Assembly: GCA_030693065.1 (NCBI GenBank)
Contig: JAUYBL010000010.1
Span: 62,001 to 126,000, forward strand
Length of the DNA: 64,000 nt
Direction of reading: 5' to 3'
Origin: Methylococcaceae bacterium
GTDB taxonomy: Bacteria > Pseudomonadota > Gammaproteobacteria > Methylococcales > Methylomonadaceae
Every line of letters starts with the position of its first letter. Within the stretch, counting starts at the first letter, position 1. A program made the translations under genes and the position numbers. A model generated the notes under the pieces. That model was not told where the DNA came from, searched no databases, and saw nothing but the letters and a program-made list of their open reading frames with translations. Below are positions 4,122-59,112 of the stretch, one piece after another.

Positions 4122-5190
4122 AAGTCACCCGAGGATCAGCCAATGTGTAGCAAAAGTCAGCAATTAAATAACCAATTAAGGTAAGAAAGCCGCTAACCCA
4201 GGTAATCGACAACACCAGTTCACGATCGCGGCCTTTGACGGCTTCAACTGCCAATTGCCCCATGCCGTTGATGCTGAAAATATTTTCCACAATCAACGAT
4301 CCGGCTAACAAACTGGGTAACAAACCTGCCGATACGGTAATCAGTGGCAGCAGGCTGTTACGGAACACATGCCGCCACAACACATCATTTTCGGCCAAAC
4401 CCTTGGCCCGAGCAGTGCGGGCATAATCGGAATGAAGATTTTCGAGTATTGACGTTCGTGTCAGTTTCGCCAGTGCCGCAAAACCGCCGTAGGATAAACA
4501 CAGTACTGGTAACGCCAAATGCCAGATGCGATCCAGCAGAAAACCGCGCACAAAACCTGCCTGCTCCCAGTGTGGCAAGAATGGCATATCCTGGGCCTCG
4601 CGACTGCCGATACCGGCGGTCGGGAACCACTGAAAATACTGTACGTTAGCGAAGAAACCCAGCAACAGGACGCCGGCCAGCATGGTGGGGATCGACCACA
4701 ACGCCAGCATCGACATACCCATGCCGACATCGAAAGAACCACCACGATTGGTTGCGGACTTCATCCCTACTAGAATGGCAATCAGATAGGTAACAGGAAT
4801 AGTCACCAAATTAAGCAGCAGCGTAATCGGAATACGTTCGGCAAGAATGTCGGACACCGGTCGTCCATATTGAAAGCTGGTACCTAAGTCCATGCCTTTA
4901 CTGAAAGAAAATTCGCCGCGATTACCTTGTTCATCGGTGACAAAACCGATCGGCGACACATTATTCAGCCATTTCAAATATTGCACCGGCGCCGGTTTGT
5001 CCAATCCGTAACGTTTGTTGTAATAATCTTCTATCGCTTTGCGCTGTTCCGGCTTCATTTCCATGCCGCTGGTCAACGCTTGTGGCGTAATACCACCAGG
5101 TGATAAGGCCATCACGGTGAACACGACAATCGAAATCCCCAGTAACGTAGGGATCATTAGCAATAATCGTCGAACTAGATAAGTTAACAT
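4114..5190 (-). CDS. yejB: peptide-type ABC transporter permease (YejB/DppB-like)
   Basis: A 358-residue inner-membrane permease beginning with the characteristic MLTYLVRRLLLMIPTLLGIS first helix of DppB-type subunits. A periplasmic loop of about 90 residues follows, then five further helices. The EAA loop (YARTARAKGLAENDVLWRHV, about residues 260-280) would dock on the ATPase. It pairs with the YejE-like permease immediately downstream, with overlapping reading frames. The solute-binding protein gene ends 15 bases upstream of its start. Confidence 0.83.
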   Translation of the reverse strand: MLTYLVRRLLLMIPTLLGISIVVFTVMALSPGGITPQALTSGMEMKPEQRKAIEDYYNKRYGLDKPAPVQYLKWLNNVSPIGFVTDEQGNRGEFSFSKGMDLGTSFQYGRPVSDILAERIPITLLLNLVTIPVTYLIAILVGMKSATNRGGSFDVGMGMSMLALWSIPTMLAGVLLLGFFANVQYFQWFPTAGIGSREAQDMPFLPHWEQAGFVRGFLLDRIWHLALPVLCLSYGGFAALAKLTRTSILENLHSDYARTARAKGLAENDVLWRHVFRNSLLPLITVSAGLLPSLLAGSLIVENIFSINGMGQLAVEAVKGRDRELVLSITWVSGFLTLIGYLIADFCYTLADPRVTYD

Positions 5191-10218: not shown

Positions 10219-10295
10219 TGGCGGAGTGGACGGGACTCGAACCCGCGACCACCGGCGTGACAGGCCGGTATTCTAACCAACTGAACTACCACTCC
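10219..10295 (-). tRNA. tRNA-Asp (GTC)
   Basis: A 77-nt cloverleaf with acceptor arms GGAGTGG/CCACTCC, anticodon stem CCGGC/GCCGG and loop CTGTCAC, giving anticodon GTC. The T-loop reads GGTTCGAGTCC, and the 3' CCA is encoded. It lies seven bases downstream of tRNA-Val in the same orientation, so the two are processed from one transcript. Confidence 0.97.
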
Positions 10296-10301
10296 AAAGT
10301 C

Positions 10302-10377
10302 TGGTGGGTGCTGAGGGGTTTGAACCCCCGACCCTCGCCTTGTAAGGGCGATGCTCTCCCAGCTGAGCTAAGCACCC
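10302..10377 (-). tRNA. tRNA-Val (TAC)
   Basis: A 76-nt cloverleaf with acceptor arms GGGTGCT/AGCACCC, anticodon loop TTACAAG (anticodon TAC), T-arm GGGGGTTCAAACCCC, and an encoded CCA. It begins 13 bases after the hupB stop with no terminator between them, so it is probably cotranscribed with hupB. Confidence 0.97.
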
Positions 10378-17015: not shown

Positions 17016-17100
17016 TGGTGCGAATGGAGAGACTCGAACTCTCACAGGATAACCTACTGGAACCTAAATCCAGCGCGTCTACCAGTTCCGCCACATTCGC
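17016..17100 (-). tRNA. tRNA-Leu (TAG)
   Basis: An 85-nt class II tRNA with acceptor arms GCGAATG/CATTCGC, anticodon stem CTGGA/TCCAG and loop TTTAGGT (anticodon TAG). It has a long variable arm, T-loop GTTCGAGTC, and an encoded CCA. It lies upstream of tig, as in some other gammaproteobacteria. Confidence 0.96.
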
Positions 17101-37580: not shown

Positions 37581-37683
37581 TTCCCCTCACCCAACCCTCT
37601 CGGCAACTGCTCCTGCATCGCCTAAAGCGCCTACTGTTGGTGCCCTACTACCTGCTTCCATGCAGGCATCCCTTTGGAGAGGG
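37581..37683. repeat. CCCTCTCC palindromic repeat interrupted by a 69-bp element
   Basis: The host repeat reads CCCCTCACCCAACCCTC up to 37599 and resumes at 37669 with TCCCTTTGGAGAGGG. Joining the two gives CCCTCTCC...GGAGAGGG, the same palindrome that lies intact in kdpB at 52741-52780. The interruption is the mobile-like element at 37600-37668. The repeat also supplies the last codons of the membrane protein gene that ends at 37648. Confidence 0.85.
37600..37668 (+). mobile_element. 69-bp nested element, TCGGCAACTGCTCC family (copy A)
   Basis: It starts TCGGCAACTGCTCC, as do copies at 44003-44074 and 58850-58921, and ends CATGCAGGCA. The middle differs from the other two copies but keeps CTACTACCTGC and the TGCAG end. 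It is inserted directly after CTC of the host repeat, without visible target duplication. It has no coding capacity. Confidence 0.75.
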
Positions 37684-43933: not shown

Positions 43934-44086
43934 GTAGGTTGGGTAGAGGCGGAAGCCGAAACCCAACACACGTTGCGACTTATGTTGGGTTTCGCGTTGC
44001 TCTCGGCAACTGCTCCCGGCATTGCTCTACCTCCTGCATGCCCGGTAAAGCGGGGCAGGCTCTCCATGCAGTCGTACCCAACATAC
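43934..44086. repeat. GTAGGTTGGGT palindromic repeat interrupted by a 72-bp element
   Basis: The left arm GTAGGTTGGGTAGAG starts at 43934 and the right arm ends TACCCAACATAC at 44086, with an inner GAAACCCAACA / TGTTGGGTTTC pair. Removing 44003-44074 restores CTCTACCCAAC, the complement of GTTGGGTAGAG in the left arm. It lies between mxaI and the terminator before mxaR. Confidence 0.87.
44003..44074 (+). mobile_element. 72-bp nested element, TCGGCAACTGCTCC family (copy B)
   Basis: It starts TCGGCAACTGCTCC and ends CATGCAGTCG. The 3' half can fold: CTGCATG...CATGCAG with inner GCCCG...CGGGGC. It is the same length as copy C (58850-58921) and differs from it at about ten positions. It is inserted after GCTC of the host repeat. 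Confidence 0.8.
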
Positions 44087-58763: not shown

Positions 58764-58825
58764 TTTTTGTATTGCCCCGTACACTTACAAGTATCGAATA
58801 ACAGTTGAAAACCTAGAGAATCCCA

Positions 58826-58934
58826 TTCCGCTCATGGTTCGACAAGCTCTCGGCAACTGCTCCATGCGTTGCCCTACCTCCTGCATGCCCGATGAAGCGG
58901 GGCAGACTCTCCGTGCAGTCGACCACGAACGGAA
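58826..58934. repeat. GTTCGACAAGCTCACC palindromic repeat interrupted by a 72-bp element
   Basis: The host arms TTCCGCTCATGG (58826-58837) and CCACGAACGGAA (58923-58934) flank GTTCGACAAGCTC, then the inserted element, then ACC. Removing 58850-58921 restores GACAAGCTCACCACGAAC, identical to the intact copy at 18422-18539. A degenerate second half (CCGTTCGC ... TATCGAAGTGC) extends to about 58998. The rest of the 58764-59112 gap shows no gene. Confidence 0.87.
58850..58921 (+). mobile_element. 72-bp nested element, TCGGCAACTGCTCC family (copy C)
   Basis: It starts TCGGCAACTGCTCC and ends CGTGCAGTCG. The middle, CCTACCTCCTGCATGCCCG then AAGCGGGGCAGACTCTCC, closely matches copy B at 44003-44074. 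The 3' half can fold into an imperfect hairpin. It is inserted after AAGCTC with no target duplication. Confidence 0.8.
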
Positions 58935-59112
58935 CTCATTGATTTGTCTAGGTCCGTTCGCATTTATGCCCTGTGGGTACTGAGTTTATCGAAGTGCATG
59001 GTTTTTCGAGGTTCCCAGTTATTGCTTTAAGCTAGGTCGACTTTGTACCCTCATTGTATAATCGCCGCAAAACTATTTTCGTCTCACTTCTAAATTAAGG
59101 ACTGATGCCCAC

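Follow-up and report, generated by a model that had tools for sequence, protein, structure and literature searches.

What is the short sequence that occurs three times in the 64,000-nt window analysed here, each time within a different repeat, and how did it get there? The window corresponds to C26:62001-126000 of genome G000 (3,957,748 bases, 38 contigs). The spread of very short palindromic repeats in bacteria is an open question: CGTC REPs are described without a dedicated transposase (PMC3733652) and the mobilisation of SMRs has been called enigmatic (PMC3119063).

Element copies and core structure

A preliminary description of this DNA had placed three copies of the element in the window, and the sequence agrees with it on all three positions:

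37600..37668, plus strand: element copy 1, 69 nt; GCA replaces TCG at the right end; common to sister genome G003
37619..37640, plus strand: 22-nt insert (CGCCTAAAGCGCCTACTGTTGG) in copy 1, as compared with the core; placed by eye
44003..44074, plus strand: element copy 2, 72 nt; preceded by GCTC, then TACCCAAC
44039..44062, plus strand: 24 nt inserted into the loop of hairpin 2 in copy 2; placed by eye, with an uncertainty of one T at the ends
58850..58921, plus strand: element copy 3, 72 nt; both ends set by element-free host copies
58886..58909, plus strand: 24 nt inserted into the loop of hairpin 2 in copy 3; placed by eye, with an uncertainty of one T at the ends

The 14-base head has exactly three perfect matches in the window; allowing up to three mismatches raises the number to 10, against a mean of 5.1 for shuffled sequence, so that only the exact copies stand out. 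The core of the element is 47-48 nt long and is composed of TCG, hairpin 1, TCTACCTC, hairpin 2 and a terminal TCG (TCG GCAACtGC TCC(N)T GCGTTGC TCTACCTC CTGCA TCCN TGCAG TCG). Both hairpins have the same orientation and share the loop TCCN. The extra length of the window copies comes from small hairpin inserts nested in the core, near hairpin 1 in copy 1 and in the loop of hairpin 2 in copies 2 and 3. Two core copies folded as DNA form the two hairpins with z values of -3.96 and -3.91, and the window copies, with their inserts, fold only slightly above shuffled sequences (z of -1.86, -1.46 and -1.33). The core is too short for a transposase and has no room for an open reading frame (ORF), in agreement with the earlier statement that the element encodes no protein.

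The structure is conserved beyond the sequence itself. In the core alignment, which used 34 of 51 distinct sequences, 96.1% of 408 cells are paired, a value that is biased upward for hairpin 2 because the selection of core copies demanded four of its five pairs; among copies selected by the loop alone, all four scored hairpin-2 pairs are present in 39 of 43 rows and three in the remaining 4. Five pairs show two-sided changes, with 19 such cells as opposed to a shuffled mean of 3.8, values reached by none of 500 shuffles. Examples are GCAAC/GTTGC versus GCAAT/ATTGC and GTAAC/GTTAC in hairpin 1, and CTGCA/TGCAG versus CTCCA/TGGAG in hairpin 2. A CTAC linker is found in 95 of 100 parsed units; read on the bottom strand it is a GTAG that precedes hairpin 1, on the strand opposite to the C|T cut considered below.

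Two kinds of shortened or rearranged forms were also seen. Forms of 30 nt (L127:1504-1533, L134 near 2949, and L010) are without the part between two CTCCTGC repeats and look like core deletions mediated by these repeats. In a Lysobacteraceae MAG, three loci (L291, L295 and L309) are mosaics of single units resembling hairpin 2, for example TCCGGCATCCATGCCGTCG, so that hairpin 2 and the TCG behind it may form an independent unit.

Insertion into host repeats

The sequences around the three copies were assigned to the following host repeats:

37583..37599, plus strand: left half of host repeat 3 (CCCCTCACCCAACCCTC) at copy 1, from the sequence; an element-free relative, CAACCCTCTCCAGCAGGAGAGGG, is found in L042
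37669..37684, plus strand: right half of host repeat 3 (TCCCTTTGGAGAGGGC), from the sequence
43934..44086, no strand assigned: REP pair of the GTAG type split by copy 2 (host repeat 2)
58804..59016 (approximate), no strand assigned: larger repeat enclosing copy 3, with ends like GGGAACCTCGAAAAACC; G003 is without it here
58828..58849, plus strand: left half of host palindrome 1 (CCGCTCATGGTTCGACAAGCTC)
58922..58932, plus strand: right half of host palindrome 1 (ACCACGAACGG)

Removal of the element had been said to restore the host and to leave no target duplication, and for host 1 both points are borne out by the sister genomes. When the copy-3 region was compared by BLAST with sister genome G001, the matching pieces abutted at query 550/623, which is window 58849|58922 (for example, G001:C2:5039-5078 with 5079-5180). 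Eleven element-free copies of host 1, six in G001 and five in G002, were aligned with two filled ones; in each, CAAGCTC is joined straight to the right flank (ACCAC in 10 copies, TCCAC in one) with no duplicated base at the join. Together these comparisons fix the boundaries of copy 3 to the base. For none of the three window copies did G001-G003 yield an orthologous site at which the host stands empty, so the evidence for insertion into hosts rests on paralogous comparison. Copy 1 is common to G003 (91% identity over 901 bases), and G001 and G002 are without host and element together; at the copy-2 site G001-G003 carry a different REP pair; at the copy-3 site the whole enclosing repeat is missing from G003. 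On this paralogous evidence, precise insertion of the element is well supported.

Host 1 accommodates approximately 25 of the 64 heads detected in the window's genome. In hosts 1, 2 and 7 (the last being TACTTTCTTTTGCTTCGCC^AAAAGAAAGTA) the break falls on the 3' edge of a hairpin loop. The element is also nested in itself, after GGTGCCC^TACC and GTTGCTC^TACC. The REP pair of host 2 resembles the pairs that flank RAYT genes of the same genome at L054, L055 and L056. At this intergenic place (window 43934-44086; L174:1420-1530), G000 has a REP pair of the GTTGGGT type and three sister genomes have one of the GTGGGC type, as if the pairs had been replaced in place.

Larger repeats of approximately 300 bp with TACCAATTCC-like ends were observed in the window's genome and in Shewanella (L254, L299 and other loci), and these carry the element. 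One of them, at approximately 15416-15719 of L189, is present with its element in G000, and G001 and G002 are without the repeat; in G001 its absence leaves a TA-like join. Pseudoalteromonas flanks (L403 and L404) end like the TACCAATTCC-ended repeats, with GGATTGGTAT. Such repeats may be carriers that spread the element between orders.

Target site

The preliminary description had the element inserting always after CTC, a rule that the larger sample does not bear out. Among 64 deduplicated heads of G000, a count that leaves out heads close to the end of a fetched stretch, the preceding trinucleotide is CTC in 38, TTC in 6, GCC in 6, CCC in 4 and others in 10; one of the 26 non-CTC heads (L039, CGGGTAAGGG) is not the element. 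Across genomes, merging by flank similarity left 102 of 183 sites; 89 remained after dropping tandem neighbours, and 58 host contexts after collapsing similar hosts. In these 58 contexts, position -1 is C in 46 and the host base at +1 is T in 46 and A in 8, with a background near 25%; the set from which they derive demanded TCG at the right end and TCGG, CCGG or GCGG at the head, so those element bases are fixed by construction. Because part of the 183 sites came from CTC-bearing patterns, the target was counted separately on loci of the exact core 29-mer, which were fetched without flank in the pattern. After collapsing, 47 contexts remain: position -1 is C in 37 and T in the other ten, position +1 is T in 38, and CTC precedes the element in only 9. 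C|T junctions number 31 and C|A junctions 4, together 35 of 47. The better rule for the target is therefore C|T, sometimes C|A. The right junction of the element is G|T or G|A, not C|T.

Palindromic repeats had likewise been described as the regular targets, and across contexts hairpin hosts are favoured at most weakly. A general folding test of 89 joined sites against 712 control YC|T sites showed no difference (p = 0.29). Stems that start at the junction gave p = 0.004 in a rank test with the 89 sites and p = 0.08 with the 58 collapsed contexts. The most favourable of the palindrome tests was for junction stems of at least 6 bp, found in 6 of 58 contexts and in 30 of 1160 control sites (Fisher p = 0.006).

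Two ways of encoding the target were considered and set aside. A guide match, in which the CTAC linker would predict the G|T or G|A right end, is not proposed here because CTAC is also present in copies ending in GCA or TAA (L106, L095 and L039). Insertion guided by a bridge RNA, as in IS110, is disfavoured by two junctions without a common core dinucleotide.

Distribution and arrays

The pattern CTCTCGGCAACTGCTCC matches G000 exactly at 26 places and, with two mismatches allowed, at 64; its reversed control matches nowhere. A covariance model built from the 34 distinct core copies found at least 69 places in this genome at E <= 0.1, with 150 of 2041 candidates scored. The head 15-mer, with at most one mismatch, is present in 55 of 101 genomes (G000 and 100 relatives). 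Nineteen of these have 10 or more places (reversed control, at most 2 per strand); one, G084, was discarded, as its matches are mostly a different word, CTCGACAACTGCTCC, in an apparent gene. The 18 remaining head-rich genomes all belong to the family of the window's genome, with G017 at the top (158 places). The window's organism probably stands close to Methylobacter, as loci of its relatives are found again in records named Methylobacter.

The exact core 29-mer was found in at least 118 stretches of GTDB genomes, and the carriers among the matches listed include Methylobacter, Methylovulum, Methylomonas, Methylomicrobium, Shewanella, Zhongshania, Endozoicomonas, Cellvibrionaceae, Lysobacterales and Dokdonella. 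Methylobacter tundripaludum SV96 is one cultured carrier. Among 127 places in these loci, 108 hold one unit and 15 hold two to six, some of them as head-to-tail arrays; parsing failed in 4. In Shewanella, the element occupies one recurrent site of the TACCAATTCC-ended repeat with 1 to 6 units. Four contigs of a viral collection contain the core and seven plasmid records contain the element whole or in part; none of 50,697 phage records matched the core at E <= 0.001. The BREX gene pglX contains 36 nt of the element, in frame, on Salmonella and Moellerella plasmids (L401:1501-1536 and L402:1501-1536); the translated piece has no stop. No Rfam family matched the element above the gathering score in four sources including the window, where only three tRNAs were recognised; their genes lie on the minus strand at 10222-10377 and 17019-17100.

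Candidate transposases

In the preliminary description, mobilisation in trans by an enzyme of the IS200/IS605 or RAYT type had been proposed. Enzymes of IS200/IS605 elements are described as binding hairpins at both ends and using guide tetranucleotides (PMC6006769). TnpA-REP is reported to cut at CT in E. coli and Stenotrophomonas and at both CT and CA in Marinomonas Mb, and the attacking 3' base of the E. coli enzyme must be C (PMC8266576). The anatomy of the element fits this proposal, and its junctions, which are not cleavage data, agree with the RAYT target dinucleotides in the 35 contexts with C|T or C|A. None of 6 Y1 loci of G000 and 30 of its relatives is bracketed by the element. The best Y1 match of G000 is a decayed transposase gene of the classical IS200 type, interrupted by two stop codons (L051; G000:C1:16148-16399); intact RAYT genes of this genome lie at L052, L053, L054, L055 and L056.

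Y1 matches were found in 20 of 20 relatives tested, element-rich and element-free alike, and thus the presence of Y1 does not discriminate between them. Among 12 element-bearing genomes reached via named loci, whose completeness is unstated, nine have a Y1 match and three, Zhongshania aquimaris, Shewanella ulleungensis and S. basaltis, have none; two of these three have element arrays. A proximity test took 28 of 29 Y1 matches from five carrier genomes and found an element start within 1 kb of two, against 0.57 expected (p = 0.11). The two are single copies, at 405 bp on C25 of G000 and at 254 bp on C27 of G017, and are at most a weak hint of a tie between Y1 genes and the element.

No long form with a gene between the ends, which would represent an autonomous copy, occurs among the element copies listed. 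We also clustered 839 ORFs (stop to stop, at least 90 aa) within 2.5 kb of 80 of the at least 118 loci. No gene family clearly tied to the element was seen among the first 30 clusters; the two largest lie on the element itself, and three more are represented in 3 loci each.

Relation to known elements

The element slots exactly into other repeats and occurs nearly unchanged in distant relatives, and hence this gene-free unit of about 47 nt with two hairpins is a very small mobile element. Its core is shorter than the 52-bp forms described among the PATEs of Haloquadratum walsbyi, one of which is thought to be mobile (PMC3119063). According to the same account, PATEs lack terminal inverted repeats and target duplications, are too short for a transposase, have palindromes near both ends that can be similar, and are found in, and attacked by, other elements. 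All of this is shared by the element studied here, whose ends, TCGG and GTCG, are not inverted repeats. Unlike the element, PATEs are reported to have a target oligonucleotide of 4-6 bases rather than a dinucleotide, and their palindromes match those of IS605-type transposons (PMC3119063); the element further differs from the PATEs described there in spanning many genera and forming arrays. An IS605-type parent with related palindromes was not found among the 6 own and 30 relative Y1 loci, although a parent could exist elsewhere. Since descent from an IS605-type transposon is not shown, we call the element PATE-like and do not file it as a PATE.

It is also not a member of IS200/IS605, having no ORF room for TnpA and a constant dinucleotide alone instead of a fixed target of 4-5 bases, nor of the RAYT-associated GTAG REPs. 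With the latter and their dimers, as described in PMC3733652 and PMC8266576, it shares short hairpin units, a mostly non-coding, intergenic location, high copy number, and a target that agrees with the C|T or CA cleavage site of RAYTs (PMC8266576). In contrast to it, REP dimers are mostly inverted, head to head (PMC3733652), whereas the hairpins of the element are direct; no RAYT gene is bracketed by the element, and its GTAG is found on the opposite strand only. REP dimers inside palindromes are already known from A. variabilis, T. roseum and H. neapolitanus (PMC3733652).

The SMRs of Haloquadratum are similarly gene-free and make no target duplication, and three of their families insert within palindromes of other elements, but they are described as approximately 80-110 bp long with prominent terminal inverted repeats (PMC3119063), which the element does not have. 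CGTC REPs are likewise small palindromic repeats of many species with no known dedicated transposase; they differ in having one hairpin, a CGTC tag, usually a CCA tail, and mostly head-to-head dimers (PMC3733652). A MITE derived from a DDE transposon can be discounted, given the lack of both terminal inverted repeats and target duplication. No published account of this sequence or family was found among the matches listed from the open-access PMC literature.

Mechanism of spread

We tentatively prefer the explanation that the copies belong to one non-autonomous mobile element and that a HUH (Y1) transposase supplied in trans moves it as a folded single strand of DNA, much as in PATEs. A RAYT/TnpA-REP enzyme would cut between the C of the host and the T of the element, and the released strand would be joined at another C|T. 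The host C and the element T would restore C|T at the left junction; new copies could then stack there head to tail, and the arrays would be accounted for. Longer copies come from nesting, when another small hairpin or a further element lodges inside the element. Larger repeats also carry the element along, the TACCAATTCC-ended repeat of Shewanella being one example. Exact ends with element-free hosts, 58 collapsed host contexts, an identical core in many genera and two-sided pairing changes argue for this mechanism, as do the C at -1 (37 of 47) and T at +1 (38 of 47), the self-nesting, the arrays of 2-6 units in 15 of 127 places and the reported cutting of TnpA-REP at C|T and, in one case, CA (PMC8266576). 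Against it stand the lack of an autonomous copy among those seen and of a bracketed locus among the 6 own and 30 relative Y1 loci, the three of 12 carriers without a Y1 match, the non-discriminating presence of Y1 in 20 relatives, the G|T or G|A right junction, and a GTAG tag, like that of RAYT REPs, which is on the strand opposite to the C|T cut.

Alternatively, the element may be mobile but moved by an enzyme outside the HUH-Y1 class, for example an unrecognised recombinase or a system borne by plasmids or phages. The three carriers without a Y1 match, two of them with arrays, speak for this, as do the lack of a clearly tied gene family near 80 loci and of a RAYT gene bracketed by the element. 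Nevertheless, Y1 enzymes suit the hairpin pair, the lack of duplicated bases and a target of C|T or C|A, and a gene can be missed in draft genomes or the mover lost after the spread, so that we regard such an enzyme as a serious but doubtful candidate. It is decidedly unlikely that the element itself is scarcely or not at all mobile and has spread with host repeats, as their passenger, and through recombination between them. The fixed single site in the TACCAATTCC-ended repeat of Shewanella, the approximately 25 of 64 G000 heads in host 1, and the joint absence of host and element from relatives at copy 1 and at L189 15416-15719 are what such passengers would show, but constant ends across 58 collapsed host contexts, element-free host copies and self-nesting are not. 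Several hosts are hairpins split at the loop edge and arrays vary from 1 to 6 units, as might result from an enzyme-free process in which template switching or slippage during replication copies hairpins into other hairpins; the constant ends, the dinucleotide target and the only modest enrichment of hairpins at the junction make this highly improbable.

Transposition by a HUH enzyme in trans thus remains our preferred reading, with single-stranded DNA as the putative intermediate. It is rather unlikely that this 47-nt gene-free, self-stacking hairpin pair, which would recreate its own C|T at the left edge and is near-constant in sequence across Gammaproteobacteria, has in at least some carriers a mover outside the known Y1 families. 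Because the family has exact ends, hosts that also occur without the element, a dinucleotide target, and carriers both with and without a Y1 match, candidate enzymes are directly testable with it.
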